Shown: in pieces, positions 4,037-46,266 of the stretch
How positions within the stretch are numbered: the stretch's first letter is position 1
How the letters are laid out: each line of letters opens with the position of its first letter
NCBI RefSeq assembly: GCF_012272855.1
Contig: NZ_JAAXCQ010000011.1
Location: 62,001 to 126,000, forward strand
DNA from: Arenibacter sp. 6A1
Lineage (GTDB): Bacteria > Bacteroidota > Bacteroidia > Flavobacteriales > Flavobacteriaceae
Direction of reading: 5' to 3'
Length of the DNA stretch: 64,000 nt
Notes under the pieces: model-generated
What the model was told of the DNA's origin: nothing
The model's database searches: none
The model's input: only the letters and a program-made list of their open reading frames with translations
Made by a program: the position numbers and the translations under genes

Positions 4037-4122
4037 GCGTTAGGGATCGCAGCGGCATCCCCGCAGCAGGGCAAGGGATACAGCGAAGAGCCCGCCCGAC
4101 GAAGGAGGGAACGCCCAAATTA
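4037..4122 (+). repeat. 86-bp GC-rich intergenic repeat, copy 1
   Basis: First of five near-identical 86-bp elements in the window, read 5'-GCGTTAGGG to AACGCCCAAATTA-3'. It is about 64% G+C in AT-rich surroundings. The ends GCGTT and AACGC pair, and the interior folds as a long imperfect stem (7-25 with 39-57 in repeat numbering) plus a short stem (59-61 with 71-73). It lies between the convergent TPR and chrA genes and has no open frame with coding character. Confidence 0.9.
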
Positions 4123-4163
4123 GTACGATAAGGCTAGTGCAAGACAGTCTACCGAGCAGCGCC

Positions 4164-5285
4164 TTATATAAGGGATAGTAAATACCCTAAAACAGCGCCA
4201 CCAAGAACTATAAAACCACTGTTCATTTTTTTAAAAATAAATACGGTGACCATACTTAAAACGGCAATGAAAATCATGCGCCAATCGGTAAGGGTTTCTT
4301 TTCCCATGCTAATACAGACGGCGGCGATTACCGCTACTGCCGCAATATTTACAGCATCTAAAAAGGCTCCTATTATTTTAGAATTCCTCATTTTGGGAAT
4401 CAATGGATTAAGGATCAAAACAAATAAAAAGGACGGGAGAAAAATTCCCACTGTAGCCGCGATGGCTCCTAAGGGACCATCCATTTGCCAACCGATAAAA
4501 GTAGCCGTTGTTAATATAGGACCGGGAGTAAACTGGCCAACGGCGACCGCATCGATCAATGCCTGTCTGCTGAGCAAGCCCTTGCCTACCAGTTCGGCAT
4601 CTAAAAAGGCAAATAAAACATAGCCACTGCCATAAAGAATGGCTCCGATTTTTAAAAAGGTCAGGAATATTTTAAGACTCCCTATCTTAAGGGCCGAACC
4701 CAATTGAAAAAGCAGTAAGGGGGCGAAAGATGATAAGGTAGATTTTCTTTGGCCAATTAGATAAATGAAGACTCCCATAAAACCACAAGCAAAGAGGGCG
4801 ATAATTTCACTGACGCCCATAACACATAGGATAAGGGTAAGGATTCCTAAAATAGCCAAGGTGGTGTTTTTAATGGCCTTTTGTCCAAGTCGGTATGCAG
4901 CCATGAGGATGATGGCGATAACCGCGGGTTTAATACCGTATATAAATGGCGTTATTGCGGGGAGTTGGCCATACTCTTTATACAACCATGCGAAAATACC
5001 GGTGATGAACATAGCGGGGGCAATAAAACTAATCCCCGCCACAACCAGGCCTTTCCATCCGGCCCTTTCATGACCGCAATGCATGGTCATTTCGGTAGAA
5101 TTGGGACCCGGGATAATATTCGTGGCCCCTATAAGGTCTAAAAAGTGCTCCCGGCTCATCCATTTTCTTTTATGGACAACTTCGTCCTCCAATATGGCAA
5201 TATGTGCGGCCGGACCTCCGAATGAAATACTGCCCAATTTGAAAAATAGCCACGCTATTTCTTTCAGTTTCTTGCTTTGTGACAT
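4164..5285 (-). CDS. chrA: chromate efflux transporter, ChrA family
   Basis: 373-residue inner-membrane protein with two homologous halves, the long bidomain form of the CHR family. The first half has the GGP motif at residues 23-25 (SFGGPAAHIA) and PGPNSTEMTM near 58-67; the second repeats these as ILYGSGYVLFAF and VGQFTPGPILTTATFIGW. About ten to twelve hydrophobic segments are visible. Characterised members expel chromate in a proton-linked manner; many genomic copies have unproven substrates, so chromate is inferred from family. It is transcribed alone, convergent with the TPR gene, with repeat copy 1 between the two stop codons. Confidence 0.88.
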   Translation of the reverse strand: MSQSKKLKEIAWLFFKLGSISFGGPAAHIAILEDEVVHKRKWMSREHFLDLIGATNIIPGPNSTEMTMHCGHERAGWKGLVVAGISFIAPAMFITGIFAWLYKEYGQLPAITPFIYGIKPAVIAIILMAAYRLGQKAIKNTTLAILGILTLILCVMGVSEIIALFACGFMGVFIYLIGQRKSTLSSFAPLLLFQLGSALKIGSLKIFLTFLKIGAILYGSGYVLFAFLDAELVGKGLLSRQALIDAVAVGQFTPGPILTTATFIGWQMDGPLGAIAATVGIFLPSFLFVLILNPLIPKMRNSKIIGAFLDAVNIAAVAVIAAVCISMGKETLTDWRMIFIAVLSMVTVFIFKKMNSGFIVLGGAVLGYLLSLI

Positions 5286-5468
5286 TTAAAATTCGCTACA
5301 ATTAGTTTTTTAGCCTTGCTTTTAAGGATGCAAATAACGGATTTTGTGTAATACTTGTATGGATATTAGCGCAAAGAATTGTGAATAAAAGACAGAAGGG
5401 GATTTTTATTATTTCTTCAGCCAATCTATGACTGCTTTAGGAATAACCAGGGAATTGGTTTCAATAAT

Positions 5469-5506
5469 AAAAAGGCTGCCTACATTGGTTGTAGACAGCC
5501 TTTTTT
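5469..5506 (-). terminator. bidirectional terminator
   Basis: Stem AAAAAGGCTG-C-CTACA pairs with TGTAG-A-CAGCCTTTTT around an ATTGGT loop, with one internal mismatch and A/T runs on both sides. It ends transcription of the oxidoreductase gene at 5573, which reads leftwards. Confidence 0.8.
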
Positions 5507-5572
5507 AAATTACGGGCCAGGCCCGGAATAATAATTTTGAGGCTGACAATGGTCATCAACGCCTCCCTATTA

Positions 5573-6595
5573 TTAAGATTCTAATATTTCCAATTGTTTA
5601 ATTACCTGTTCCTCGGTTACTGGGTAGGGCTTGCCATTTCTTATAGTCTGATAAACATATTCGAATAAATTAAGATAGGTAGATTTGTCTGAAGGGATTG
5701 TTTCCCGTGTTCTTTTACCTTCTTCGTCAATGGTGGTTAAGATCCCGAATTTACTAGGGTCTTCCATACCAAATAAAGGATCGCCAGGACTCATGCCTTC
5801 CGAAAGCTGCACTTCTTGTATATTGGTACGATGTTTTAAATAAGAGCCTTTGGTTCCGTTGAGAATAAAGGCAGGTTGCTCTTCTACCACCAACATACTC
5901 ATGGTTAAAAATACCTGTACGTCATTAGGGTACAAGAGATGAATATGGGCATAATCGTCTACTTGCGTATTGGGTCTAAATTGCCCCAAGTTTTTCGTCC
6001 AGCTGATCGGGTTGCCAAAAAGAGAGAGTACGGCATCTAGCACATGCGGCCCTAAATCGTTGAGCAAACCGCTGCCAGGTACCGGTGTTTCTTTGTGTGC
6101 TTTTGGACTAATATGGTGGCGATAGCGGTCATAACGCATATGTACCTCTACCAAGCGTCCTAATTTTCCGGAATCCAATACCTTTTGTATGGATAAAAAA
6201 TCACTGTCGAACCTGCGGTTCTGATAAGGAAATATATGTACGTTATGGCGTTTTGCTGCTGCATACAGTTTTTTTGCCTGATCGGAAGTTACCGTAATAG
6301 GCTTTTCGACCAAAACATGCTTGCCTGCTTGTAACGCCTTTAGCGCAAATTCAAAGTGGGAGGCATTGGGGGTGTTTACAACCACCAGCTCTATATTGGG
6401 ATCGGCGATAAGGGCATCTACGGTGTCGTGACTTTTTATCTCAGGGTAGCTATGGTGGGCCTTTTTTTCGGTTCTTTCTACTACGGCTTCTAGGGCAAAT
6501 CCTTGGTGTTCCTTTAAAAAAGGAGCATGGAATACTTTTCCAGACATGCCAAAAGACAATATACCGGTTCGTATCGTTTTTTTAGTGTTGTCCAT
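5573..6595 (-). CDS. Gfo/Idh/MocA family NAD(P)-dependent oxidoreductase
   Basis: 340-residue cytosolic dehydrogenase. The N-terminal Rossmann fold begins TGILSFGMSGKVFHAPFL (residues 11-28), the signature of the YdgJ/IolW branch of the family, which includes NADP-dependent scyllo-inositol dehydrogenase. The EKP motif that closes the nucleotide site (VLVEKPITVT) lies near residue 97. The C-terminal half is the usual substrate-binding domain with QNRRFDSDF and GSGLLNDLGPHVLDA, the latter containing the catalytic-site Asp and His. Length is normal for the family. The substrate is a sugar or cyclitol by family only. It is a single gene, followed by a strong terminator and preceded by about 145 bp without a gene. 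Confidence 0.9.
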   Translation of the reverse strand: MDNTKKTIRTGILSFGMSGKVFHAPFLKEHQGFALEAVVERTEKKAHHSYPEIKSHDTVDALIADPNIELVVVNTPNASHFEFALKALQAGKHVLVEKPITVTSDQAKKLYAAAKRHNVHIFPYQNRRFDSDFLSIQKVLDSGKLGRLVEVHMRYDRYRHHISPKAHKETPVPGSGLLNDLGPHVLDAVLSLFGNPISWTKNLGQFRPNTQVDDYAHIHLLYPNDVQVFLTMSMLVVEEQPAFILNGTKGSYLKHRTNIQEVQLSEGMSPGDPLFGMEDPSKFGILTTIDEEGKRTRETIPSDKSTYLNLFEYVYQTIRNGKPYPVTEEQVIKQLEILES

Positions 6596-6739
6596 AATTG
6601 TATTGGGAAAGTTTTTTAGTGGTCCGTGATTTAGAAACGGATGCTATTTTAAAGTCCATTGGACCACATTACTGTAATTATATTTTAGGCTTAAAACGCT
6701 TTGGGGATTAAGGAAAAAGGGAGTTTGTTACAAGAGCGA

Positions 6740-7321
6740 TTAGCCGTGTATAGTTTCCGACTTCCCGTAGTTTTTAATGACTTCTCCTTCAAATTGTATT
6801 AATTCTTCCCATCGCTTATTAACATCGATACCTTCTCCATATTTTCTGGCAAAGCCTATAAAGGTGGTGTAATGTCCGGCTTCACTGATCATCAGATCGC
6901 GATAAAAAGTAGCTAGTTCTGGGTCTTTTATCTGATTTGATAAAAGCTTAAAACGCTCACAGCTACGGGCTTCTATCATGGCCGAGAACAACAATCTATC
7001 TACTAAGGATTGCTGACGGCTACCGCCTTTGATCATAAACTTATACAATTCATTTACGTAGCTGTCCTTGCGCTCTCGCCCTAGGGTATAGCCACGTTTC
7101 TTGATGATTTCATGGACCATTTCAAAATGCTGTAACTCCTCTTGGGCCAATGTCAAAAGGTCCGTGACCAATTCTGTATGTTCAGAGTTTAAGGTAATAA
7201 TAGAAATGGCATTGGTAGCTGCTTTTTGTTCGCACCAAGCATGATCGGTCAGTATTTCTTCAATATTAGATTCCACAATATTTACCCATCGTGGATCTGT
7301 TTCTAATTTTAACCCTAGCAT
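6740..7321 (-). CDS. miaE: tRNA-(ms2io6A)-hydroxylase MiaE
   Basis: 193-residue cytosolic protein of the MiaE family, a non-haem di-iron enzyme with a four-helix ferritin-like fold that hydroxylates the isopentenyl group of ms2i6A37 in tRNA. The iron-ligand helices are visible: EEILTDHAWCEQKAA, AQEELQHFEMVHEII (ExxH), EARSCERF and SEAGHYTTFIGFA (ExxH). Length and motif spacing match the family. It lies upstream of a GAF-domain gene read the other side of a 59-bp gap on the same strand (the GAF gene is at 7381-7863, so it precedes miaE in transcription). The two could be co-transcribed. The presence of miaE implies the ms2i6A pathway (miaA, miaB) elsewhere in the genome. Confidence 0.92.
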   Translation of the reverse strand: MLGLKLETDPRWVNIVESNIEEILTDHAWCEQKAATNAISIITLNSEHTELVTDLLTLAQEELQHFEMVHEIIKKRGYTLGRERKDSYVNELYKFMIKGGSRQQSLVDRLLFSAMIEARSCERFKLLSNQIKDPELATFYRDLMISEAGHYTTFIGFARKYGEGIDVNKRWEELIQFEGEVIKNYGKSETIHG

Positions 7322-7380
7322 AGCAATGTTTTTAGGTAAAGGTAACTAATCTTCTTTTAAACGGGGGAGGAGCCTGTCCT

Positions 7381-7863
7381 TTATGGCAATATTACAAACT
7401 TGCTCATCTCCGCACCAATCTTTAAAAGCGTATTTACCTCTTCTTCTTTAAAGTCGTACGGTACTGGCTTTGCCACTCCTAAAGTGCCAAATAAACGGCC
7501 TTCTAAAAGCATGGGGATCGCTATGGAGCCTTCAACCTTAGTGTCTTTTGCCGCTGGGCGGGCCACTCCCGAATCATCGGTTTGTAGGTTGCACATTTCT
7601 ACGGGCTTTAAACGCTCGGCAGCAATACCGGCCATCCCTTTGCCAATTGGGATTTGAGATAGCTTAGGGATCAAAAACTCAGGAATGCCCTTATGTGCCT
7701 GCAACTGTAGTAAGGAAGTAGCTGGGTCCATAAAATGAATGGTTCCCGTGGTACAATCAAAATAAGAAATAATATCGGATAGAATTTGTTGCCAATCAAT
7801 GGTCGGCTGGTTCAGCCCTTTATAAATAGCATCTAGTAATAAATCCTTTTTTTCGCTCGTCAT
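7381..7863 (-). CDS. GAF domain-containing protein
   Basis: 160-residue cytosolic protein consisting of one GAF domain (about residues 15-158). GAF domains bind small molecules or cyclic nucleotides and act as sensors. Visible features include TGTIHFMD, the loop GIPEFLIPKLSQIPIGKGMAG, and SIAIPMLLEGRLFGTLGVA near the C-terminus. The upstream ATG at 7899 would add a Lys-rich stretch; 7863 (MTSEKKDLLLDAIYKGL) is preferred because the helix begins there. No output domain is attached, so it works as a stand-alone sensor or partner subunit. It is followed at 59 bp by miaE on the same strand. Confidence 0.82.
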   Translation of the reverse strand: MTSEKKDLLLDAIYKGLNQPTIDWQQILSDIISYFDCTTGTIHFMDPATSLLQLQAHKGIPEFLIPKLSQIPIGKGMAGIAAERLKPVEMCNLQTDDSGVARPAAKDTKVEGSIAIPMLLEGRLFGTLGVAKPVPYDFKEEEVNTLLKIGAEMSKFVILP

Positions 7864-7971
7864 GGTAGGTCTTTTTTTTAAACTACCCAAATGTAGCAAT
7901 TTGAAACAACAATATTAGGCAGCTGGAATGTTAAGACTATTCCAAATAATTTTGCAAAGAATATATGGCCC

Positions 7972-8002
7972 AAAAAACCTCCAAAACAGTAGAATTGGAG
8001 GC
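7972..8002 (-). terminator. terminator after anti-sigma gene
   Basis: On the minus strand GCCTCCAA pairs with TTGGAGG around a 9- to 10-nt loop and is followed by TTTTTTGG. It lies 30 bp downstream of the anti-sigma stop codon. Confidence 0.7.
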
Positions 8003-8033
8003 AAATTTTATAAAAAGAGTACTGCTTCAGCGT

Positions 8034-8816
8034 TTAGGAAACTGCCACGCCTAGGGCATACAATTGGTCCAAGTTGGGTGATTCGCTACCTCCCGCAGGT
8101 TCTAAGGTTATCCCAAAGGCTTCGGAATCGTTAGGATTGGCCAAGGCAAATACCCTGTTGTTATCCATGGTAAAATCCGATAAAAGCCCCATACTCGTTG
8201 GGGTCAATGGATCTAACTTTAAAGACCATACCTGGTATACCATGCCCTCTGGGGGTTCTGGCAATCCTTGGGCATCTATATAAACTTGTTGCTCCTTTTT
8301 GTTCCAATATGCTTTGGCATAGGCATTGGGAGCTACGATCTGACCTCCCATGGCCACCACCGTAATATTTTTATCCCGTATGGTCTCCAAAAGGATCTTG
8401 GTTTTTTCCAAAGAGGTTTCCGATTCCGCGATCTGTTCTTCCAAGCTCACTTTTTCTTTTGCCGCTTGGTCAATATCAGATTTTAGCTGGCGGTTTTCTT
8501 GAAACACCCACATAAGTCCCGCCATAAAAATGAGCGATGCGGCCCATCCAAAATAAGCCCCCCAATTTATTTGTTTTAAAGGTGGTGCACCGGCGTTTTT
8601 GCCGTTGATTTTTACCTTAATAGCTTCAAACCCTTTTACTCCCGGTGAAACAGATTTTGAAAGGGACAAAATAGAAGCTTCAATGGCCTCTATTTCTTTT
8701 TTAATTTCAGGATATTTTTCTGCGTTCAGGTACACTTCTAAATTCTCGATCTCCGAAAGGGTGCCTGCAACATACAGTTCCAAAATACCAGATGATATGT
8801 ATTCTTTTATATCCAT
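8034..8816 (-). CDS. RskA-type anti-sigma factor
   Basis: 260-residue single-pass membrane protein. The N-terminal part (1-70) begins MDIKEYISSGILELYVAGTL, the short zinc-free anti-sigma domain of the RskA group. One membrane helix follows near residues 86-105 (WGAYFGWAASLIFMAGLMWV), then a coiled coil (105-135) and the extracytoplasmic RskA C-terminal domain with VVAMGGQIVAPNAYAKAYW and PEPPEGMVYQVWSLKLDP. It would hold the sigma factor encoded directly upstream (gap of one base) until released by a signal. Substitution AMGGQ for the usual threonine/alanine-rich entry is unremarkable. Both genes end at the terminator at 7972. Confidence 0.88.
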   Translation of the reverse strand: MDIKEYISSGILELYVAGTLSEIENLEVYLNAEKYPEIKKEIEAIEASILSLSKSVSPGVKGFEAIKVKINGKNAGAPPLKQINWGAYFGWAASLIFMAGLMWVFQENRQLKSDIDQAAKEKVSLEEQIAESETSLEKTKILLETIRDKNITVVAMGGQIVAPNAYAKAYWNKKEQQVYIDAQGLPEPPEGMVYQVWSLKLDPLTPTSMGLLSDFTMDNNRVFALANPNDSEAFGITLEPAGGSESPNLDQLYALGVAVS

Positions 8817-8817
8817 A

Positions 8818-9351
8818 TTATAATGCCATATTATTCCTTATTTGGGAAATGCAATTCCGATTTCTGGTTTTTACCGTTCCCAAGGGAATATCTAATTCTT
8901 CAGCTACTTCTTTTTGGGTAAACCCTTTAAAGTATAGTAGTTCTATGATTTGTACACATTTGTCCTTTAAATTTACCAATAGGCGTCTAAAGCCCGCGTG
9001 GTCTTCTTTTTCAGTAATGGTATCGGCTTTGTTATCTAAAATACCTACGAAGAAATCCGAGGAAAGGTTCTGTTTGTTGTTTTTATAAGACTTACTGCGA
9101 ATTTCATCGATAGCCGCATTCCGAGCAATATTCAGGATCCAGGTAAAAAACCGGCCTTTGCTTGCGTTATAACTCTCCGCGTTGTTCCATATTTTTATAA
9201 AAACGTCTTGGCAAATCTCTTCGGCCAAAGTATCGTTCCTTACAATCGTATTTATAATACCGCATATATTTTCGGAATACATGCCGTAAAGTTTTTCAAA
9301 AGCAGCCGTGTCTTTTTTTTGAAATTGCACTACCAATAGGTCTAACTCCAT
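8818..9351 (-). CDS. ECF-family RNA polymerase sigma factor (SigK-like)
   Basis: 177-residue sigma-70 family protein with region 2 (about 10-90: FEKLYGMYSENICGIINTI, then EEICQDVFIKIWNN and FTWILNIARNAAIDEIRSK) and region 4 (about 120-175: LLYFKGFTQKEVAEELDIP, GTVKTRNRNCISQIRN). No region 1 or 3, as expected for ECF factors. The stop codon TAA is followed after one base by the ATG of the RskA-type anti-sigma gene, a standard paired arrangement. The regulon cannot be read from this sequence; the superoxide dismutase and OsmC-fusion genes upstream are candidate members by proximity only. Confidence 0.92.
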   Translation of the reverse strand: MELDLLVVQFQKKDTAAFEKLYGMYSENICGIINTIVRNDTLAEEICQDVFIKIWNNAESYNASKGRFFTWILNIARNAAIDEIRSKSYKNNKQNLSSDFFVGILDNKADTITEKEDHAGFRRLLVNLKDKCVQIIELLYFKGFTQKEVAEELDIPLGTVKTRNRNCISQIRNNMAL

Positions 9352-9517
9352 TCAGCTTATTTTTCTTAAAGATAGAAAAAGGCCTTCAACTTAGTGGTTT
9401 TTTTAGTCCTAAATATTCTATGGGCAATAAGCATAGGAAAACAAGGTCTTGTAAAAAAGAAATTTTAACCGGTGAGATGGTCAGGTGTTAAACAGCTGGT
9501 TTTTTGGTGGTGTCTAT

Positions 9518-9603
9518 TAATTTGGGCGTTCCCTCCTTCGTCGGGAGGGCTCTCCGCTGTATCCCTTGCCTTGCTGCGGGGATGCCGCTGCGATCCCTAA
9601 CGC
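9518..9603 (-). repeat. 86-bp GC-rich intergenic repeat, copy 2
   Basis: Minus-strand copy of the 86-bp repeat, differing from copy 1 at positions 33, 50 and 58 of the repeat. Its T58 restores a sixth pair in CCCTCC...GGAGGG, and G50 makes a C14-G50 pair. It lies in the 468-bp gap between sodC and the sigma factor gene, in the same orientation as both genes. Apart from this copy and the sodC terminator, that gap holds nothing I can identify. Confidence 0.9.
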
Positions 9604-9760
9604 ACTAAAGTGTAGCAATTGTATAGGGTGCCAATGAAGGAACGCTATTGCTACCGTATCAAAAAAAATAAGGGGGTAGTAATGGATCCCGGATACTTTT
9701 TGCTCCATGCCATTGGGTTTATTTTATCAAGAAGCGCTGTGAAATGGGTGCTTTAGATTA

Positions 9761-9798
9761 AAAAAAGCCGTCTAAAAATAGTTAGACGGCCTTTTTTT
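9761..9798 (-). terminator. terminator after sodC
   Basis: GCCGTCTAA pairs with TTAGACGGC around a short loop, with A-runs and T-runs on the two sides. It starts 22 bp after the sodC stop codon and would work in both directions. Confidence 0.82.
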
Positions 9799-9819
9799 AT
9801 GTTGTAAAAGTAGTTGTGA

Positions 9820-10407
9820 TTATTCTATAATCCCAGTACAAGAAACCCTTCCGCCAGCATCACCGGTAGGTTGGGTAACAAAATCATCGACTCCTTGGTG
9901 AACGATAACTGCTTTTCCAAGAATGTTTTTTGTATCGTCATCACATCCTATACACCATTCATCCGTTGAGAATTCTACGGTTCCATTTCCATCGGCATCA
10001 GCAGTAAAATTGCCAATATCGCCTCTGTGATATCCTTCTTCTGCTCCCCATTTTCCATGATTGGCAAAAGTAGGGTTCCAGTGACCTCCGGTAGATTTAC
10101 CATCTGCAGAAGAACAATCTGCCTTTTCATGTAAGTGAATGGCATGTTCCCCAGGTGTCAATCCTGTTAATGTTGCCTTCATGGTAACCGTTCCATTTTC
10201 CTCGGTAAAGCTAACATCTCCGGTAACATTACTATCGCTTTTAGGCTCCATGGAAAATTTAATGGTCTTAACCTCAATCTTTTCGGTTATTTCCTTTGCC
10301 GTAGCTTCAATTTCTTCCATAGCCTCTTTGGATTCTTTTTTTACCTCCTTACAACTAAAGGAAGCTATTAAAATAATCCCTAAAGACAATACCTTTATTT
10401 TTTTCAT
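9820..10407 (-). CDS. sodC: Cu/Zn superoxide dismutase lipoprotein
   Basis: 195-residue lipoprotein: signal 1-19 with lipobox FSC (Cys19), a charged helical linker (20-50), then a full Cu/Zn SOD domain. It converts superoxide to hydrogen peroxide and oxygen in the periplasm or outer-membrane surface. Metal ligands are visible: HLHEKADC (two Cu His), NHGKWG (bridging His), YHRGDIGNF (Zn His and Asp) and VIVHQGVDDF (Cu His). GGRVSC ends the domain with the active-site Arg and the second disulfide Cys. Transcribed alone, followed by a strong terminator. A TTG-N20-TAACTTTA sequence at 10434-10464 on the minus strand is a weak promoter candidate. Confidence 0.93.
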   Translation of the reverse strand: MKKIKVLSLGIILIASFSCKEVKKESKEAMEEIEATAKEITEKIEVKTIKFSMEPKSDSNVTGDVSFTEENGTVTMKATLTGLTPGEHAIHLHEKADCSSADGKSTGGHWNPTFANHGKWGAEEGYHRGDIGNFTADADGNGTVEFSTDEWCIGCDDDTKNILGKAVIVHQGVDDFVTQPTGDAGGRVSCTGIIE

Positions 10408-10509
10408 CAGTTCTTAAATTTTAAATTAATAGTTAAAGTTACGTATAATTTAAAACGATATCAAAACTAAGTCGAATTGATTTTAGCCTCATAATCAGTG
10501 GGGGCTTTC

Positions 10510-33612: not shown

Positions 33613-34728
33613 ATGAAAAGACTGTTTGCAATTTTCGCAATTGTTTGCACTATGTATTCTTGTGCCGATGCTGAAAAAACAAAAATTCCGGTATACGCGT
33701 GGTCTGGAGGTCCTGGCGAGGCTACTGACCAAGAGTTAAAAATAAAATTTGATGATTTTAAAAGCAAAGGGATAGACGGAATCATGTACAATGGAGGGCA
33801 TGACCCCGAGACTTATAAAAGGGTAGGAAAGCTTGTAAAAGAAGCCGGAATGGAATTTCATACTTGGATACCGACCATGGTACAGGGCGAAAATCCTAAG
33901 TTGTCTCATGATCTATATGCCGTGAATAGACTTGGAGAATCTTCTTTTGATAATCCACCGTACGTTCCTTATTATAAGTTTTTGTGTCCTAGTAAAGAAG
34001 GCTCTTATAACTTTTTAGCTGATTTATATGGAGGTATTGCCGAATTGGAAGAGGTAGATGGTATTCATTTGGATTATATTCGTTTCCCTGATGTAATTTT
34101 AGCAGAAGGCCTATGGGACAAATATGGTTTGGTAATGAACGAAGAATATCCAGTAGCCGATTTTTGTTATTGTGATGATTGTACGGCCGATTTTAAAGAA
34201 AAAACTGGAATTGATATCAAAGAAGTAGAAGATCCTTCTCAGATTCAGGAATGGAAGGAGTTTAGATACGATTTGATTACGAATATGGTGAATCGTATAG
34301 CGAAGGTTGTACATGAAAAAGGAAAGCGCCTAAATGCCGCAGTTTTTCCAGGTCCAAGTATTTCAAAGAAATTGGTTAGACAAGAATGGAACAAGTGGGA
34401 TCTTGATGCCGTTTTTCCAATGAACTACAACGATTTTTATTTAAAAGATGCCTCATGGGTAGGAGAGGTTGTTAAAGAAGAGGTTACTGCTGTTAACGGT
34501 ACTAAACCTATCTATAGTGGACTTTTTATTTGTCCGAACCCAGAGAGAAAGACAGAGGAGAACGATCCTGAAAACCACGGTTTATTGCCTTCGGAAATGG
34601 AAACTGCCATTAGAGGTTCTATGGAGAATGGTGCTGCCGGGATTTGTCTTTTTACCCCAGAAAGAATGACAGAAGCTCATTGGGTAGAGTTTGAAAAGGC
34701 TATTTATGCCGATTATTCTAAAAAATAA
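33613..34728 (+). CDS. GHL10-like putative glycosyl hydrolase lipoprotein
   Basis: 371-residue lipoprotein: signal 1-17 with lipobox YSC (Cys17). The body resembles the family-10-like glycosyl hydrolases (GHL10/DUF4015 type TIM barrels): IDGIMYNGGHDPE, AGMEFHTWIPTMVQGE, GIHLDYIRFPDV (with the D-Y-I-R-F strand typical of these proteins), LNAAVFPGPSISKK and AVFPMNYNDFYL. Catalytic residues are likely among the Asp in HLDYIRFPD and the Glu/Asp near NYND but are not proven. Substrate unknown; cell-envelope or dietary polysaccharide is a guess. Free-standing gene with large gaps on both sides, closed by the terminator at 34788. Confidence 0.8.
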   Translation: MKRLFAIFAIVCTMYSCADAEKTKIPVYAWSGGPGEATDQELKIKFDDFKSKGIDGIMYNGGHDPETYKRVGKLVKEAGMEFHTWIPTMVQGENPKLSHDLYAVNRLGESSFDNPPYVPYYKFLCPSKEGSYNFLADLYGGIAELEEVDGIHLDYIRFPDVILAEGLWDKYGLVMNEEYPVADFCYCDDCTADFKEKTGIDIKEVEDPSQIQEWKEFRYDLITNMVNRIAKVVHEKGKRLNAAVFPGPSISKKLVRQEWNKWDLDAVFPMNYNDFYLKDASWVGEVVKEEVTAVNGTKPIYSGLFICPNPERKTEENDPENHGLLPSEMETAIRGSMENGAAGICLFTPERMTEAHWVEFEKAIYADYSKK

Positions 34729-35008: not shown

Positions 35009-35094
35009 GCGTTAGGGACCACGGCGGCATCCCCGCAGCAAGGCAAGGGATATAGCCAAGGGCCCGCCCGACGCAGGAGGGAACGCCCAAATTA
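35009..35094 (+). repeat. 86-bp GC-rich intergenic repeat, copy 3
   Basis: Plus-strand copy; differs from copy 1 at repeat positions 11, 13, 15, 33, 45, 49, 53 and 66. The changes at 11 with 53 (T-A to C-G) and 15 with 49 (A/G to G-C) keep or create pairs in the long stem. It sits between the convergent GHL10-like and GNAT genes, in the same orientation as copies 1 and 5. The rest of that 429-bp gap holds only the terminator at 34788. Confidence 0.9.
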
Positions 35095-35157: not shown

Positions 35158-35610
35158 TTATAGGTGTAGTTTTAAACCTTCGTGTGAGGCTTTAAAGCCT
35201 AGCTTTTCATAAAACCGGATGGCCTCTGGACGCTGTTTGTCCGAGGTTAATTGTATTAAATGAACGCCTTTTTCCGTGGCCCTGGCCTTAATCCAGGCAA
35301 ACATTTGTTGGCCTATGCCTTGACCGGTATAGTCTTCGCGAACCCAAACATTTTCTACCAGACACCGTATTCCGCCCTGAAAAGTGAGGTAGGGGATAAA
35401 GCTTAGTTGAAAGGTGGCTATAACTTCCTTGTCTGCGTTTTCCAAAACGGTAAGTTCTTGGTTGCTATCGGCGGCAATACGCTCAAAAGCGTCGTAATAT
35501 ACCTTAGGTAAGGGAGACTGATAATTTTCGCGTAGGCGTCCTAGTTTGTCTTTGGAAATCATTTTAATGATGGCCGGAAGATCTTCTTTTGTGGCGAGAC
35601 GAAATTTCAT
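35158..35610 (-). CDS. GNAT family N-acetyltransferase
   Basis: 150-residue cytosolic acetyltransferase. The acetyl-CoA site is visible in ENVWVREDYTGQGIGQQMFA (the V-R-x-x-x-x-G-Q-G-I-G motif A) and the C-terminal IRFYEKLGFKASHEGLKL is the usual final strand-helix. Substrate unknown. It follows purL on the same strand after 133 bp, and a hairpin lies in between, so it is likely a separate unit. Length normal for a single GNAT domain. Confidence 0.87.
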   Translation of the reverse strand: MKFRLATKEDLPAIIKMISKDKLGRLRENYQSPLPKVYYDAFERIAADSNQELTVLENADKEVIATFQLSFIPYLTFQGGIRCLVENVWVREDYTGQGIGQQMFAWIKARATEKGVHLIQLTSDKQRPEAIRFYEKLGFKASHEGLKLHL

Positions 35611-39412: not shown

Positions 39413-39869
39413 CTTATTTTGTAAGTTGTATGTTTAAGAAAGGCACAAATTTACGGTTTTAAACTGTAATTTTTTACTAGAATGATGAACAGTTTTAGGT
39501 GCTGGTTGTTAATTTTTTCATAGCAACTACCTTTTTTTACTTTTTATAGGGGTAATTAGCTGGTATATAGCGTAGTGTGTAGAGGTGTTTTTAGGGTGTG
39601 CGATAGATTGCAATAAGAAAGAAAACATTTTTTTGCGGGCCTTAGGACTATTGGATTAGGGGTGTCTATGCGGTTTTTTTATGGTAGGGAAATCTAGAAA
39701 GTACGAGGAGTAAATAGGAGTTCTTTTTGATGGAAGACGCAAAAAAAAAAAGGAGGCAAGCCGCGAGGGAAAAACTACCGTTGCAGATATATTGGTTCTT
39801 GAGATAAAATGCAGCAAGGGGCTTTTATAAGTGTACTCCCTTAGTGTAAAATGCGCAAGTGATATAATT
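39413..39869. other. 457-bp intergenic region
   Basis: Between purL and the CDF gene, read on the same strand. It contains the purL promoter candidate and otherwise nothing I can support: no coding-like frame, no repeat copy, no purine riboswitch core. An A-run of eleven bases lies near 39741. Confidence 0.6.
39446..39453 (-). promoter_or_regulatory. -7 box TAAATTTG of purL
   Basis: Minus-strand TAAATTTG matches TAnnTTTG and lies 34 bp from the purL start. A TTG at the proper distance is not present. Confidence 0.5.
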
Positions 39870-40736
39870 TTATTTGGGTTCTATATGAATCAAAATATTG
39901 CCAAGATTAGGAATGTCCTTTAATAAGGTGTCTTTTAGTTTATGTGAAATGTCGTGTCCTTCGGTAACCGATATGTCTCCGTTAACCATGGCGTGCAGGT
40001 CTACATGGTATTTGGTGCCCGCCTTTCTCACAAAACATTTTTCCGTGCCCAAAATGCCGTCTACGCTCATAGAAACGGCCCTTATTTCTTCAATTAAATC
40101 GTCGTACAGATGCTCGTCCATAATTTCTCCTAGGGCAGGACGAAAGATTAAATAACTATTATAAATGATAAAACCAGCGGCAAAAAGAGCAGCCCAATCA
40201 TCGGCAGTTTCATATCCTTCTCCAAAAATCAAAGCAATAGAAATCCCGATAAAAGCCATCACGGAAGTAATCGCATCACTCCTATGGTGCCAAGCATCTG
40301 CTTTTAGGGAAGAGCTATTGGTCTCTATACTTTTTTTTAATACTAGTCGAAAAGAAATTTCCTTCCAAAAAATGATAGCGCCCAGTACTATTAGGGTCCA
40401 TGGTTTGGGAAGATTATGGGGAGTTCTAATATTGTGAATGCTCTCGTGGGCAATAAAAATGGCAGATAAGATTAAAAAGCCTACCACCAAAAAAGTAATC
40501 AAAGGTTCAATTCTACCATGGCCGTAGGGATGGTTCTCATCGGCCGGTCTTTTGGCGTATTTTAGTCCAAACAGCACCAGAAAAGACGAGAATATATCAG
40601 TGGTAGATTCTATGGCGTCGGCAATTAGGGCATAGGAATTACCAAAAAAACCCGCCAATCCTTTTATAATAGCCAATAGTCCACTACTAAGGATGCTGTA
40701 GTAAATTGTTTTTATGGCCGTTTTTTCGTTCTTCAT
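39870..40736 (-). CDS. cation diffusion facilitator transporter
   Basis: 288-residue inner-membrane metal exporter. Six helices are visible; the metal site is in helix 2 (ALIADAIESTTDIFSSF, Asp pair) and helix 5 (KADAWHHRSDAITSVM, His-Asp). The loop motif HPYGHGRIEPL is typical of the Zn/Fe/Mn CDF proteins. A cytosolic C-terminal domain with histidines (HVDLHAMVN, VTEGHDISHKLK) binds metal and dimerises. It exchanges Zn or related divalent cations for protons. Divergent from the acyl-CoA dehydrogenase at 41140, with repeat copy 4 between. Confidence 0.9.
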   Translation of the reverse strand: MKNEKTAIKTIYYSILSSGLLAIIKGLAGFFGNSYALIADAIESTTDIFSSFLVLFGLKYAKRPADENHPYGHGRIEPLITFLVVGFLILSAIFIAHESIHNIRTPHNLPKPWTLIVLGAIIFWKEISFRLVLKKSIETNSSSLKADAWHHRSDAITSVMAFIGISIALIFGEGYETADDWAALFAAGFIIYNSYLIFRPALGEIMDEHLYDDLIEEIRAVSMSVDGILGTEKCFVRKAGTKYHVDLHAMVNGDISVTEGHDISHKLKDTLLKDIPNLGNILIHIEPK

Positions 40737-40846
40737 TGTTGTTGGAAGGTTTTTTCCGAGGACAAAGATAAGGGTTCAAATCTATAAGCAGCCCGTTGTT
40801 GCCAGTAAGTGTCTTCTTTTAAAAACTTCGCTAAATTCTAGTGTAA

Positions 40847-40932
40847 TTATCTGGGCGTTCCCTCCTTCGTCGGGCGGGCCCTTGGCTGTATCCCTTGCCT
40901 TGCTGCGGGGATGCCGCCGCGGTCCCTAACGC
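40847..40932 (-). repeat. 86-bp GC-rich intergenic repeat, copy 4
   Basis: Minus-strand copy with changes to G-C pairs at stem positions 11/53 and 15/49; its last bases are AGATAA instead of AAATTA. It is the only copy in a divergent, promoter-bearing gap (CDF gene to the left, acyl-CoA dehydrogenase to the right), 111 bp from the CDF start and 208 bp from the dehydrogenase start. Nothing else was found in this 403-bp gap. Confidence 0.9.
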
Positions 40933-41139
40933 AAAAAAAACATTGGGTAATTATTCGTAAATGGAACTAAATTGAAAAGGAACCAAAGAAATAGCACATC
41001 TTTGTATGGGGTGTCAAGGATTGTATAGTGCCTTATAGGGGGCTTTTGCCCCGGAAATAATTAGGAGATATTTATAATAAATAATGGAACAATTATGTTT
41101 TATCTTAGTGATGGAATATTAACAAAAGCATTTTAAATT

Positions 41140-42954
41140 ATGGCAAAGGAATATGTAGACATAAATACCTTAAAATTTTTGTTATATCAGGTTCATGAAT
41201 TAGACGGACTATTTGGGTTTGAACGTTATGAGGGGCATGACAGGCCATCTATGGATATGTTTTTGGACGCTATCAAGGATTTTGCCGATCGCGACCTGTT
41301 TCCGTATTTTAAAGAAATGGACGATGTTCCTGCGGTTTTCGATAAGGGTGAGGTTCGGGTGCATGAGCAGGTAGCCGTTATGATGAAAAAAGGAGGGGAA
41401 ATGGGTGTTATTTGCGGTCCTTTGGATTATGACGAGGGCGGATTACAAATACCGTTTATGGTACATACTGCAGCCACCTACATATTAGATGCTGCCAATA
41501 ATCATTTGCCGGGCTATGCCACCTTAACCCTAGGGGCGGCAGAGCTTATAGTCCATTTTGCCAACCAACATCTAAAAGATACCTATGTACCTAATATGCT
41601 TTTAGGGGCATGGGGAGGAACAATGTGTCTTACCGAGCCTCAGGCAGGTAGCTCCTTGTCAGATATTACGACCAAGGCTACTCCGACCGATGAGGGGTAT
41701 TATAAAATATCGGGGCAGAAAATATTTATCTCTGGTGGCGATTACCAATATGTAGAGAATATTGTTCACTTGGTATTGGCAAGGATCGATGGGGCCTCAG
41801 AAGGCACTAAGGGGATCTCTTTGTTTGTAGTGCCCAAGAACCGCCTGGAAACCGATGGTAGTCTTGTTGGGAATGACGTAAAGACCCTGGCCGATTTTGA
41901 AAAAATGGGACAACGAGGTTTTGCTACTACCCATTTGGGATTTGGAGATTCCGACGATTGTCAGGGCTGGTTGGTAGGGGAGGCCAACCAAGGATTGAAA
42001 TATATGTTCTTGATGATGAACGATGCTAGGATAGGAGTAGGTAGGGGAGCCGCAGCCATAGCTATGGCGGCCTACCAAGCATCCCTGCAATATGCAAAGG
42101 AACGTTCCCAAGGGCGAAAATTGTCCGAAACAGGGAAAAAAGACCCGGGAGAAGACCAGTGTTTAATCATTGAACATCCCGATGTAAGACGGATGCTTTT
42201 TCTGCAGAAAGCCATCGCAGAAGGGGCTTTGAGCCTTATTTTATTGGCGGCTAAGTATCACGATTTACAACGTTCTGTTACCGATCATTCCGAAAAGGAA
42301 AAGTATCAGTTATTGTTAGAAATTATTACTCCCATGGTTAAAACATACCCGGCAGAAGCTGGAGCATTGGCAGTGAGTAACGGACTTCAGGTCTTAGGGG
42401 GGTACGGATTTTGTTCGGACTTTATCTTGCAACAATATTATAGGGATATCAGGATATTTAGCATATACGAAGGAACAACCGGAATACAGGCTCAGGATTT
42501 ATTGGGACGAAAAGTTTTGATGCATAATGGCAAGGCCCTACAATTGCTTATAGAAGAAATAGGCACAACCATTGCCGTTGCTTCCGATTATCAAGACTTG
42601 CAGGAATGGGCCAATACGTTAAAGGGCAAATTGACCCTGGTACATGAGGTGTTGGTGTATTTAAAGACATTTGCCAACAAGGAAAATTATGAAAGGTATT
42701 TGTCCGATGCCAATCTGTTTATGGAATTCTTAAGTTATGTGGTCATAGGGTGGAATTGGTTGGAAATGGCTTATGTAGCAAAACAGGCCCTCGACAATAA
42801 AGATACAGCCTATTCGGAGGCCTTTTACGAAAGTAAAATCCATACCATGAAATTTTATTTTAAATACGAGTTGACAAAAACCAATGCCTTGGCCGAAACC
42901 ATCATGCACAAGGAGGTGCTGACCCAGGTAACAGAAAAGGAATTTTTAGTATAA
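41140..42954 (+). CDS. acyl-CoA dehydrogenase with C-terminal extension
   Basis: 604-residue cytosolic flavoprotein of the long acyl-CoA dehydrogenase group. Seen in order: an N-terminal helical domain (about 1-160), TMCLTEPQAGSSLSDI (FAD/substrate), the middle beta domain with ISGGDYQYVENIVHLVLARI, and the C-terminal helical domain with VLGGYGFCSDFILQQYYRDI and RIFSIYEGTTGIQAQDLLGR, where the Glu of YEGT is the base. A further 100-residue helical tail (acyl-CoA dehydrogenase C-terminal family) follows. It is not adjacent to other fad genes. Chain length preference is unknown. Confidence 0.92.
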   Translation: MAKEYVDINTLKFLLYQVHELDGLFGFERYEGHDRPSMDMFLDAIKDFADRDLFPYFKEMDDVPAVFDKGEVRVHEQVAVMMKKGGEMGVICGPLDYDEGGLQIPFMVHTAATYILDAANNHLPGYATLTLGAAELIVHFANQHLKDTYVPNMLLGAWGGTMCLTEPQAGSSLSDITTKATPTDEGYYKISGQKIFISGGDYQYVENIVHLVLARIDGASEGTKGISLFVVPKNRLETDGSLVGNDVKTLADFEKMGQRGFATTHLGFGDSDDCQGWLVGEANQGLKYMFLMMNDARIGVGRGAAAIAMAAYQASLQYAKERSQGRKLSETGKKDPGEDQCLIIEHPDVRRMLFLQKAIAEGALSLILLAAKYHDLQRSVTDHSEKEKYQLLLEIITPMVKTYPAEAGALAVSNGLQVLGGYGFCSDFILQQYYRDIRIFSIYEGTTGIQAQDLLGRKVLMHNGKALQLLIEEIGTTIAVASDYQDLQEWANTLKGKLTLVHEVLVYLKTFANKENYERYLSDANLFMEFLSYVVIGWNWLEMAYVAKQALDNKDTAYSEAFYESKIHTMKFYFKYELTKTNALAETIMHKEVLTQVTEKEFLV

Positions 42955-43114
42955 GGAAGAGTACGGTCGGTATTGGGTGCTATGGGTGGAAACCAAAAAA
43001 TGTAAAGTTTTAGGTAGGGTGATTTATGGTTGAGTTGTTATATATATGAAAATGCGTTCGAGGGTGTGTTTCTTAGAATATAGATCACTAGTAGAACATA
43101 AATATAATAATGAG

Positions 43115-43558
43115 ATGAAAAGACTACATTTTTTATTGACCACCGCCTTTGTTGTGATGTCCTTTGGTTTAACAGCGCAAGAAACGGAAGCTAGTTCCGA
43201 AGAAAAACTTTCTTATTATGAAAAGAGAGCTAAGGAGGATGCGCAGTTTGAGCAATCACAAAAATTAGACAACGAGAAAGAAGAAGAGGAGTTTTGGGAA
43301 GATCAAAAGGAATATGAAAAAAAACTAAAGAAGCGCGATAGAAAAGCTTACAAAGCTTATATGAAAGGAAAAAGGGATGCTTATGCCGAGCACGAACAAC
43401 ATTGTGATTCTCATTGTCATCACAGTTCAAGGTATCATTATCACGCCTCTTTTTACTATCATGGGCACGACCATTATGAATATAGAAGATCGCCAAGGCG
43501 GACTTCAGTTCGGACGAATGTAGGGATCGGTTTGCCAAGTGTTAGGGTGGGACTCTAA
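43115..43558 (+). CDS. small secreted protein with His-rich C-terminus
   Basis: 147-residue protein that I do not recognise. Residues 1-21 are a signal peptide (MKRLHFLLTTAFVVMSFGLTA before Q). Residues 30-95 are a highly charged, Glu/Lys-rich helix that may form a coiled coil. Then comes a stretch with 10 His in about 33 residues, containing HCDSHCHH and YYHGHDHYEY, and an Arg/Ser tail. Such a stretch could bind zinc, copper or nickel; this is inferred from composition. Start at 43115 is chosen over an ATG at 43046, which would put the signal peptide inside the chain. It follows the acyl-CoA dehydrogenase by 160 bp. Confidence 0.72.
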   Translation: MKRLHFLLTTAFVVMSFGLTAQETEASSEEKLSYYEKRAKEDAQFEQSQKLDNEKEEEEFWEDQKEYEKKLKKRDRKAYKAYMKGKRDAYAEHEQHCDSHCHHSSRYHYHASFYYHGHDHYEYRRSPRRTSVRTNVGIGLPSVRVGL

Positions 43559-43579
43559 TATCCGAACAAGACAAAATAA

Positions 43580-43630
43580 AAGCGGCCAAATATCATGTAT
43601 TCCTACATGCTATTTGGCCGCTTATTTTTT
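43580..43630 (+). terminator. bidirectional terminator
   Basis: AAGCGGCCAAATA pairs with TATTTGGCCGCTT and encloses a second stem (CATGTA with TACATG). T-run follows. It separates the His-rich protein gene from the convergent RsmB-type gene. Confidence 0.88.
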
Positions 43631-43653
43631 ATAATGCTAAAAGTAAAGTGCTC

Positions 43654-44874
43654 TTAGGCAGAAGGCGTCTTTTCTAAAAGGGCCATATAAAATCCGTCAA
43701 AACCACTTTTTGAAGCATAAATATTCTTCTGGGCACTTAGTTTAAAGTCTTTACCAGCTTCAGAGCTTAAGAATTTATTTACTTGTTGAATATTCTCTTG
43801 TGGTAATATGGAACAGGTAGCATACACCATTTTTCCACCAGTTTTTACAATCTTGCTATAATCTTGTAAAATTTGCTGTTGGGTAACCATGATTTTTTCC
43901 AAGAACTCAGGTTGTAGTTTCCATTTGGCATCCGGATTTCTTCGTAAAACCCCTAAGCCAGTACAAGGCGCATCAATTAACACGCGATCGGCACTACCGT
44001 GTAGTTTTTTAATAACCTTGGTAGAGTCTATAGTTCTGGTCTCCACGTTATGGGCACCATTTCTTTTTGCTCTTCGTTTTAGTTCTTTTAGTTTATTGTC
44101 ATAGATGTCCATGGCAATCAACTGTCCTTTGTTTTGCATCTGAGCTGCTAAATGAAGTGTTTTTCCTCCAGCACCAGCACAGGTGTCTACGACTCTTTGT
44201 CCTGGTTGTACGTCTAAGAACGGGGCAACGAGCTGTGAAGAGGCGTCTTGTACTTCGAACCAACCGTTTTGGAAGGCATCGGTAACAAAAACATTAGCGC
44301 GCTCTTTTAATTGTAAAGCATCTGGATAGCCACGGATCACCTCGGTTTCTATGCCTGCTTCCAATAAGGCGGCCTTTACATTTTCTTTGGTCGATTTAAG
44401 GGTGTTGACCCTTAAAATTACATCGGCTTGTTGGTTTAGCGCATGGATTTCCTTGGTCCATAAATCTTCGCCTAAGGCTTTTGCTCCAAGTTCGTCCATC
44501 CAATCGGGAATGGACTCATTGAACTTTCTTATTTTAGAAAGTTCATCAAACCTTCCTTTAATCCTTCTCTCTGGGGTAGGTTCTATCTGTTTCCAATCAG
44601 GTAGTTTTATTCCTTTAAGTACCGCCCATACGGCAAATAGTCTAAACAGGTTGGGTCTAGTGTAAGGCGCTTTTACTTCGGCTATTTCGGTGTATAGCCT
44701 TTTCCAACGCACCATATCATAAGTGGTCTCGGCAATGAAACCTCTGTCTCGTGCTCCCCAACGTTTGTCGTACTTTAATACTTTTTCTACTACTTTATCA
44801 GCGTATTCTCCCTCGTTAAATATATAATGTAACGCATCAACAACGGCAAACACTAGATTTCTATGTAATCGCAT
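43654..44874 (-). CDS. RsmB/NOP family rRNA (cytosine-C5) methyltransferase
   Basis: 406-residue cytosolic SAM-dependent methyltransferase. N-terminal RNA-binding part (1-190), then SAM motif VVDTCAGAGGKTLHLA, motif IV IDAPCTGLGVLRRNPD with the Cys that assists release, and motif VI YATCSILPQENIQQV with the nucleophilic Cys. This arrangement is that of RsmB and related m5C methyltransferases acting on 16S rRNA. Which cytosine is modified cannot be read here. Divergent from the lipoprotein gene at 44949, with about 75 bp between them. Confidence 0.9.
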   Translation of the reverse strand: MRLHRNLVFAVVDALHYIFNEGEYADKVVEKVLKYDKRWGARDRGFIAETTYDMVRWKRLYTEIAEVKAPYTRPNLFRLFAVWAVLKGIKLPDWKQIEPTPERRIKGRFDELSKIRKFNESIPDWMDELGAKALGEDLWTKEIHALNQQADVILRVNTLKSTKENVKAALLEAGIETEVIRGYPDALQLKERANVFVTDAFQNGWFEVQDASSQLVAPFLDVQPGQRVVDTCAGAGGKTLHLAAQMQNKGQLIAMDIYDNKLKELKRRAKRNGAHNVETRTIDSTKVIKKLHGSADRVLIDAPCTGLGVLRRNPDAKWKLQPEFLEKIMVTQQQILQDYSKIVKTGGKMVYATCSILPQENIQQVNKFLSSEAGKDFKLSAQKNIYASKSGFDGFYMALLEKTPSA

Positions 44875-44948
44875 TTCTAAAAAAAATTAAGATTGCAAAG
44901 GTATTGTATTAGAACCTAATCCTCTTATTTTTGGTGAAAATTATAGCT

Positions 44949-45980
44949 ATGCGTACGTATTTTATGTTTTTAGTGCTTTTGGTGACCGTTTCTTGTGCCA
45001 AAAAAAAGGAAATAAAGACTTTCGATTCAGTTGAAATAGAGACAGTTTTTTCGGATTCCTTGAGTTTTAGGGCGATAGAGATTATGGGTGGCAACAGTTT
45101 GGCTTTTGCCGCAAATAAAGGGGCTTATGGACTGGTAGATCTAAAAAGCCATCAAGTAATGGTCAATACCCAGCTATACGATACCATTGCGCCCGAATTT
45201 AGGGCAGTAGCAGCAACATCAACAGACTTTTTTATGCTATCGGTGAGTAATCCTGCCTTATTATACAAAACAGGGGATACGGGAATTATGGAGCTGGTTT
45301 ATAAAGAAGAGGATGAAAAGGTTTTTTACGATGCCATGACCTTTTGGAACGATCAGGAAGGAATAGCGCTAGGTGATAGTATGGACGGATGCCTATCTAT
45401 TATCATTACTAGAAACGGTGGAAAAACATGGCGTAAATTGCCTTGTTCGGCCTTGCCGGCATCCATGACAGACGAAGGTGCTTTTGCGGCTAGTAATACC
45501 AATATTAAAACGGTTGGGGATAAAACCTGGATCGGTACCACAGGAGGGCAGATTTATTTTTCGGAAAATAAAGGAAAGACATGGAGTGTCTTCGAGACTC
45601 CTATAGCGAGTGCAGAAAGCACACAAGGAATCTATAGCCTCGATTTTTATGATGAAAACCTTGGGGTGGCCATCGGAGGCGATTATACAAAACCAGCGAT
45701 CAATACGGCTAATAAAGCTATTACAAGAGACGGCGGTAAAACGTGGCAGCTTTTGGCCGATGGCAAAGAACCTAATTATAAGAGTTGTGTGCAATTTGTT
45801 CCAAATGCTGGAGGGAATGCCCTAGTGGCCGTTGGTTTTACCGGTGTTTCTTATTCGGCCGATGCGGGGGGGTCTTGGAAACAACTTTCGGATGACTCTT
45901 TTTATACAATAAGATTTTTAAACGATTCCATTGCTTATGCCGCAGGGAAAAACAGGATTGCAAAATTGAAGTTTAAATAA
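44949..45980 (+). CDS. BNR / YCF48-like beta-propeller lipoprotein
   Basis: 343-residue lipoprotein: signal 1-16, lipobox VSC (Cys16). The body shows repeated Asp-box motifs of photosystem assembly (YCF48)-like and sialidase-like propellers: SIIITRNGGKTWRKL, IYFSENKGKTWSVF, AITRDGGKTWQLLAD and SYSADAGGSWKQLSD, each on its own blade. Such propellers in flavobacteria are often called 'oxidoreductase', but no redox site is seen; a binding or assembly role is more likely. Start is ATG at 44949, six codons after a GTG. Free-standing gene. Confidence 0.85.
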   Translation: MRTYFMFLVLLVTVSCAKKKEIKTFDSVEIETVFSDSLSFRAIEIMGGNSLAFAANKGAYGLVDLKSHQVMVNTQLYDTIAPEFRAVAATSTDFFMLSVSNPALLYKTGDTGIMELVYKEEDEKVFYDAMTFWNDQEGIALGDSMDGCLSIIITRNGGKTWRKLPCSALPASMTDEGAFAASNTNIKTVGDKTWIGTTGGQIYFSENKGKTWSVFETPIASAESTQGIYSLDFYDENLGVAIGGDYTKPAINTANKAITRDGGKTWQLLADGKEPNYKSCVQFVPNAGGNALVAVGFTGVSYSADAGGSWKQLSDDSFYTIRFLNDSIAYAAGKNRIAKLKFK

Positions 45981-46180
45981 AAAACGAAGCACGATAACCG
46001 GTGGGCATACATTGGATTGTTGAAGGCTCCACTATTGGTCTATTAGAAAAACACAGGAATGGTTTTACAATCTGCTGGACAATGGTTGTTTGGCAGATTG
46101 TCAATGGGATGGGTTTAGCCAGTTCTCAATATTTGCAATTATGACCTAATTGTTGCATTGGATAGTTGTTGTGTTGTTAT

Positions 46181-46266
46181 GCGTTAGGGACCGCGGCGGC
46201 ATCCCCGCAGCAAGGCAAGGGATATAGCCAAGAGCCCACCCGACGAAGGAGGGAACGCCCAAAATA
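46181..46266 (+). repeat. 86-bp GC-rich intergenic repeat, copy 5
   Basis: Plus-strand copy in the convergent gap between the BNR lipoprotein and the Spy-like gene; it ends 8 bases before that gene's stop codon. It carries C11 with A53, the one copy in which this pair is broken, and T45, a G-U pair. A weak hairpin (ACAATCTGC with GCAGATTGT, 46067-46101) lies upstream of it. Confidence 0.9.

Follow-up and report, generated by a model that had tools for sequence, protein, structure and literature searches.

Why should the same short, GC-rich sequence recur in the intergenic gaps of a flavobacterial genome, carrying changes that leave a predicted fold intact, and what keeps it there? The question is raised by a stretch of 64,000 nucleotides (the window), positions 62,001 to 126,000 of contig NZ_JAAXCQ010000011.1 in assembly GCF_012272855.1 of Arenibacter sp. 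6A1 (the source genome, G000), in which a first-pass annotation made from the letters alone had noticed five copies of an 86-bp repeat. All five are present at the places and on the strands claimed, and the flavobacterial setting that the annotation had guessed at holds as well, in that the closest named purL genes come from Arenibacter. The repeat is a subfamily, marked by a GC-rich tip (the GC type), of the Flavo-1 superfamily (RF01705); its fold, a three-way junction, is supported by covariation, and it has multiplied in one clade, in a burst that probably preceded the parting of the source species from its sister.

The length first given held in part: the strongly conserved unit spans 83 bp, beginning GCGTTAGGG and ending AACGCCCAAA, the three additional bases are less conserved, and a weaker tail of about 30 bases follows. 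Over the 83 bp, G+C content is 65-70% in the window copies (about 64% had been given over 86 bp). Inspection by eye of the flanks of 69 copies revealed no target duplication. A covariance model (R1), trained on 41 copies that include those of the window, returned exactly five matches there, at 101.7-107.7 bits; it was used in place of an earlier fuzzy-pattern scan that had overlooked two of the five. The copies, and the parts of copy 1 referred to below, are as follows.

4037 to 4119, + strand: copy 1 (107.7 bits), in the convergent gap between a TPR-protein gene (2596-3906, +) and a chromate-transporter gene (4164-5285, -).
4037 to 4041, + strand: 5' side (GCGTT) of the terminal helix of copy 1 in the RNAalifold structure, its partner AACGC being at 4110-4114; double changes in five of five pairs across genera.
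4095 to 4109, + strand: side hairpin (CCC...GGG) of the three-way junction of copy 1; 77.4% of cells paired across genera, the length varying widely among copies.
4120 to 4150, + strand: weakly conserved tail of copy 1; family consensus about TTATTATGCTAAAAA..., from base frequencies downstream of 69 GC-type copies.
9521 to 9603, - strand: copy 2 (105.4 bits), in sense orientation in the tandem gap between an ECF sigma factor gene (8818-9351, -) and a Cu/Zn superoxide dismutase gene (9820-10407, -).
35009 to 35091, + strand: copy 3 (103.5 bits), in the convergent gap between a gene without Pfam match (33613-34728, +) and an acetyltransferase gene (35158-35610, -).
40850 to 40932, - strand: copy 4 (102.0 bits), in the divergent gap between a cation-efflux gene (39870-40736, -) and an acyl-CoA dehydrogenase gene (41140-42954, +); common to the sister genome.
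46181 to 46263, + strand: copy 5 (101.7 bits), in the convergent gap between a BNR/sortilin-like gene (44931-45980, +) and an open reading frame (ORF; 46275-46733, -); common to the sister genome.

The fold proposed from these five copies is largely recovered. Both the terminal pairing of GCGTT with AACGC and the CCC/GGG side hairpin that makes a three-way junction occur in the structure predicted by RNAalifold, and the bases reported at two inner pairs were as described (11/53 is T-A in two copies, C-G in two and C/A in one; 15/49 is A/G in two and G-C in three), while a third proposed pair, 19/45, is absent from that structure. The structure-preserving changes extend far beyond the window. 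In an alignment of 41 copies, 92.6% of cells are paired and double changes occur in 5 of 19 pairs; among 84 sequences from several genera the corresponding values are 91.3% and 16 of 19, with a covariation score of 0.321, compared to 0.103 for shuffled controls and at most 0.067 for slid structures, in an alignment that was fitted to the covariance model and therefore leans toward structure. The tip and the side hairpin show large length differences between copies. Wobble pairs across genera favour the top strand (26 G-U vs 3 A-C, with 16 of the G-U at one pair). In 66 GC-type copies of the source genome, over 24 tried pairs, the tally is 13 G-U vs 25 A-C; 21 of these A-C fall at 29/34, which is no pair of the structure, and without that position the tally becomes 13 G-U vs 4 A-C.

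A possible relation to Flavo-1, raised but unconfirmed in the first-pass annotation, withstands comparison in one respect: in a permissive scan, copy 1 aligns to all 76 positions of the RF01705 model (E 2e-5 for the 161 bases searched), but its score of 31.9 bits lies under the gathering cut-off of 42. At curated cut-offs none of the five window copies passes, and in 140 kb of contig C57 holding nine covariance-model matches Rfam reports none of the nine; the full-length alignment and these failures together mark it as a subfamily that escapes the Rfam threshold. Canonical Flavo-1 copies also inhabit the source genome (at least 49 of 68 matches above the cut-off, among the best 150 of 1099 candidates scored), and their outer ends and inner loops are the same as those of the GC-type repeat. 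They differ from it in their T-rich/A-rich (T-type) tip, which in the GC type is GC-rich and 16 nt long, and in a side hairpin that is usually shorter; the GC type is further set apart by its score below the gathering threshold and its expansion in one lineage. One copy, L040, is intermediate: its tip is T-rich, its side hairpin that of the GC type. The Rfam cut-off thus misses the larger of two subfamilies in the source genome wherever checked (0 of 14 copies pass). The motif was described from Bacteroidetes (Weinberg et al. 2010, PMC2864571). According to the accessible portion of a transcriptome study of F. psychrophilum (PMC9723704), some Flavo-1 matches lie in 5' transcribed regions, the motif occurs in both orientations with many matches outside transcribed regions, and no real clue to its function emerges. 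Its function is left blank in the relevant part of a 2022 small-RNA review, and the accessible text of two further papers uses RF01705 merely as a data set; in general, the open literature found by our searches proposes, in its accessible text, no function for Flavo-1. Searches on repeats of Flavobacterium genomes and on REP-like repeats gave nothing relevant among the matches listed, and the papers listed for a stretch of sequence seem, by their titles, to be chance matches to primers.

Several other features of the superfamily were encountered in passing. A third tip type (...CCCGCAGCGAGGAACGAGG...GAGGACTTG...) is found at L064:9642-9727 (+) and L139:4695-4794 (-) and, in divergent form, in one Algibacter record. 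In some congeners a GCCTGCC-type palindrome is apparently inserted between the terminal helix and the next (by eye; examples in L201, L215 and L216, immediately ahead of position 1501 when read along the element). Copies of Flavo-1 type flank apparent rRNA operons on both sides in L004, L015, L020, L040, L042, L043 and L044, and several of the shared upstream flanks are those of rRNA operons (16S start in L043; 5S end in L020, recognised by eye); because such copies adjoin rRNA operons, many matches lie near contig ends.

That the family extends beyond the window is borne out by at least 40 blast matches (among the best 40 of 225 candidates scored) and, more fully, by 85 copies in 1,624,940 bases (six contigs or parts of contigs, 35% of the genome), 69 of them GC-type, which extrapolate to about 244 genome-wide. 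The family multiplied in one clade. The nearest relative found, G009, is a sister genome whose purL is 96% identical to that of the source, the rest of the genus standing at 76-78%. Model searches of 31 genomes, the whole-genome counts of which are lower bounds since a share of the candidates was scored, recovered at least 147 copies in each of these two genomes, 6-11 in 16 other congeners and 0-15 in 13 genomes outside the genus. The sites of window copies 3-5 are represented in two Arenibacter genomes by much shorter gaps with no model match; that of copy 3, for example, measures 429 bp in the source genome vs 133 and 96 bp in the other two. In the wider family, 234 of 397 genomes contain an RF01705 match, and two species of another genus carry 125 vs 24.

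Since that burst, most copies have stayed in place. Of 27 copies compared, 23 occupy the same sites in the source genome and its sister, including all 15 on contig C57 (the sister contig has two more past the C57 end) and 8 of 12 on contig C2, where the sister also has one extra copy without counterpart. The four unshared source copies on C2 comprise one of which most has been lost in the sister, its right end being kept, two that lie where the genomes differ over more than the element, and one of T type that is missing in the sister together with its flank. Over the 23 orthologous pairs the element itself differs at 84 of 1925 bases (4.4%, with 2 gap columns), in comparison with 32.3% for the 60-bp upstream and 23.7% for the downstream flanks (25.3% and 20.4% once rows exceeding 40%, 7 and 2 of 23 respectively, are dropped) and, at the fourfold sites of colinear genes, with 22.6% (120 genes) and 23.0% (79 genes). 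An element divergence of 4.4% against about 23% at fourfold sites suggests purifying selection. The differences are also unevenly distributed along the unit. In the 20 pairs in which both members are 83 bp long (3 of 23 were left out), none falls at positions 1-10, 16-27, 39-43 or 60-64; they cluster at the tip and at a handful of other places. Ortholog pairs differ in 7 of 680 comparisons at columns that are invariant in alignment A3 and in 64 of 980 at the remaining columns, a split that is not fully independent since A3 contains some of the same source copies. Orthologs differ on average at 3.55 of the 83 positions, paralogs at 6.86. Taken together, we read these results as largely vertical descent under purifying selection, with some conversion possible. 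Copies at shared sites are thus some fivefold less diverged than fourfold positions, which implies either a role at each site or an efficient homogenising process, and the pair of sister species offers a direct handle for telling one from the other.

A 509-bp segment, comprising one copy and about 420 bp upstream of it, lies at different loci in the two genomes (C2:164423-164931 in the source, C49:123725-124233 in the sister), and in both forms a <- -> pair with a T-type copy. Such a difference in place points to recombination or to a mobile unit of greater length.

The placement of GC-type copies relative to genes is skewed toward convergent gene ends. Context was taken from a simple caller of ORFs of at least 100 aa (a 70-aa threshold gave spurious ORFs over the elements), and copies with no neighbour on one side (3 of the 69 GC-type, 2 of the 16 others) were left out. 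The remaining 66 GC-type copies lie in convergent gaps in 29 cases, in tandem gaps in 34 (20 of them sense and 14 antisense) and in divergent gaps in 3, compared with 89 convergent, 396 tandem and 141 divergent among 626 background gaps of at least 100 bp, copy-holding gaps included. In an earlier set (C2, C11 and 22 GC-type loci) convergent gaps accounted for 24 of 49 vs 31 of 220 in the background (Fisher p 4.6e-7). Copies also reside within operons. The thiC-thiE gap of the source genome holds an antisense copy (genes named by eye), and in seven genomes from six other genera one copy is found in the sufD-sufS gap and another between hmgA and hppD, all 14 of them antisense, in a sample that was chosen for two copies about 27 kb apart rather than at random and with suf and hmgA-hppD names assigned by inspection of the sequences rather than by family search. 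The repeat may act as an RNA, but copies are found both sense and antisense to their neighbours, and antisense at these two sites in all seven genomes. Of sufD, sufS, hmgA and hppD, only hmgA occurs in the source-genome stretches examined, with a GC-type copy about 130 bp upstream, in sense orientation. Of the 80 named purL loci, four (two from Tamlana, one each from Algibacter and Flaviramulus) have a copy just upstream of the gene, and in five congeners one orthologous site, after what appear by eye to be the last ATP-synthase genes, is occupied. The suf and hmgA-hppD copies were seen at their spacing of about 27 kb in loci L348-L361, near position 3000 of each.

We tentatively prefer an explanation, its chance a little short of even, that combines dispersal in the manner of repetitive extragenic palindromic (REP) sequences with later retention as a structured element of transcript boundaries. 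A putative enzyme would have copied the foldable elements in trans, each in the form of a folded strand; a genome-wide burst would have taken place before the source species and its sister parted; and the copies would then have been held both at their sites and in sequence. Lying at probable transcript boundaries, that is, at convergent gene ends and in gaps inside operons, the fold would halt RNA polymerase or slow it, or else shield the ends of mRNAs, in the manner of the REP and bacterial interspersed mosaic elements (BIMEs) of other bacteria. Retention almost unchanged suggests that copies do a job at their sites; fold, spread, stasis, low divergence and placement are observed, and both the copying in trans and the boundary role are inferred. 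A number of results weigh against this explanation. In only 8 of 20 pairs is the ortholog closer than every other copy (in 13 it is closest or tied), as might follow from conversion, and only 5 of 25 rare alleles of source copies are common to the ortholog, although 1000 random pairings share 0.6 on average and never more than 4; the evidence of constraint comes, moreover, from one species pair, in which selection rather than homogenisation would be the main cause of low divergence. For two GC-type copies, folding was no better than that of shuffled sequences, whether as RNA or as DNA and on both strands (the single T-type copy tested as RNA does fold better, with z of -2.14 and -1.85 for the two strands). 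The 14 other, T-type copies of the source genome show no convergent enrichment (2 convergent, 10 tandem, 2 divergent), and convergent placement is weak or absent in two further copy-rich genomes, G156 (7 of 28) and G062 (8 of 26), the 30 loci of each set having been reduced by 2 that were skipped and those of G062 by 2 more found inside an ORF. No copying enzyme was found among the Y1 transposases, the candidates looked at, and Y1 (PF01797) gene counts fail to track copy number, there being 1 in the sister genome, 7 in G001 and none in G002, G011 and G013. Finally, no clean empty site was found, the three element-free orthologous gaps of Arenibacter being too diverged for exact junctions.

Some of these same results would be expected of purely selfish mobile repeats, akin to MITEs (miniature inverted-repeat transposable elements) or REPINs (REP doublets forming hairpins), which would be kept alike by gene conversion or continued copying and serve the host at no single site. 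Copy-number bursts in single lineages, the weak affinity of orthologs and the 20 of 25 rare alleles absent from them all fit that account, as does the finding that 34 of 71 ortholog differences are between alleles common in the family. We nevertheless consider it improbable, if by some way the most serious competitor, since all 15 sites on C57 are common to both sisters, orthologs differ about half as much as paralogs, differences at variable positions (for example, 7 of 20 pairs at 33 and 7 of 20 at 34) stay below the value of about 0.6 estimated for random draws from the family, and the neighbours of those positions are unchanged. The Rfam label "Gene; sRNA" raises the further prospect of a free-standing small RNA gene or a multi-copy cis-regulatory RNA, with which the covarying structure, the excess of G-U on the top strand (concentrated, as noted, at one pair) and the matches in 5' transcribed regions (in the accessible text of PMC9723704) are consistent. 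This we regard as quite unlikely: the upstream flanks, as the least conserved part, give no sign of a conserved promoter, tandem GC-type copies are divided between sense and antisense, those of the suf and hmgA-hppD sites are uniformly antisense, and the same portion of that study has Flavo-1 in both orientations, with many matches outside transcribed regions.

The distribution of copies along the chromosome invites a different proposal, in which even spacing and inverted neighbours are functional in themselves and divide the chromosome into units. Gaps between GC-type copies are indeed unusually even, their coefficient of variation being 0.593 vs 0.926 (standard deviation 0.100) in 2000 random placements in eligible gaps, none of which was as low; 3 gaps are below 5 kb vs 11.4 expected, and 15 below 10 kb vs 22.4 expected. 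Adjacent copies are oppositely oriented in 60 of 79 pairs of all types (p 4e-6) and 47 of 63 GC-type pairs, and GC-type pairs closer than 10 kb are inverted in 15 of 15. The inversion pattern was first noticed on three contigs and rechecked on three others fetched afterwards, where opposite pairs number 29 of 39 for all types (p 0.003) but 20 of 30 for the GC type (p 0.099), and where pairs within 10 kb are inverted in 6 of 6 GC-type and 11 of 12 of all types. Opposing this proposal, neither G156 nor G062 displays alternation (35 of 73 and 19 of 49 pairs opposite), on which ground we rejected alternating orientation as a general property; some copies lie inside operons; and recombinational loss of close direct repeats in the source lineage, the plain reading of the inverted neighbours, would give the same picture. 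A chromosome-organising element is therefore very improbable, and it is just as hard to credit its fullest form, in which every one of the roughly 240 copies would be a chromosomal boundary element under selection, and the regular distances between them (about 21 kb), together with the inversion of close neighbours, would be functional and mark out regular units. On one contig of G062 (C1), 12 of 14 copies over 800 kb lie on the minus strand, unlike the alternation of the source genome, which could be a replication-strand bias.

The preferred explanation, REP-like dispersal followed by retention, invites comparison with REP, BIME and REPIN elements, which the repeat resembles as a dispersed, extragenic, folded sequence in hundreds of copies. 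REPs favour convergent and tandem gaps, in the accessible portion of PMC3733652, and GC-type copies likewise prefer these over divergent ones. The hallmark given there is a terminal GTAG or CGTC tag on a stem-loop of 20-40 bp; in contrast, the repeat here is an 83-bp three-way junction, and neither tag is seen in its ends across 41 aligned copies or in the flank consensus. It also differs from REPs and their associated tyrosine transposases (RAYTs) in the lack of any relation of Y1 gene number to copy number; since, in addition, just 5 of 32 Y1 loci contain a model match (one each, one of them weak) and no Y1 gene is flanked on both sides, mobilisation by such enzymes was rejected. Low divergence at orthologous sites is documented for the present repeat. 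With MITEs and the ends of insertion sequences the repeat has in common its short length, its dispersal and a 5-bp inverted terminal pairing, but no target duplication was seen by eye, no associated transposase was found among those sought, and a covarying inner structure is common to several genera.

Other candidates were considered and set aside. Integron attC sites have the end motifs in the opposite order; an intrinsic terminator was rejected since the listed flanks show, by eye, no run of T following the fold; a promoter belonging to the element was rejected in that the upstream flank, although pyrimidine-rich near it, is least conserved between the sisters. A larger mobile unit was likewise rejected: the upstream flanks do share repeats and there are some close <- -> pairs, but the downstream flanks yield only three matches, and several of the upstream flanks held in common belong to rRNA operons. 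In one of the loci examined, L064, tandem units of about 147 bp (about 8950-9500) repeat the end of a gene resembling a Y1 transposase.

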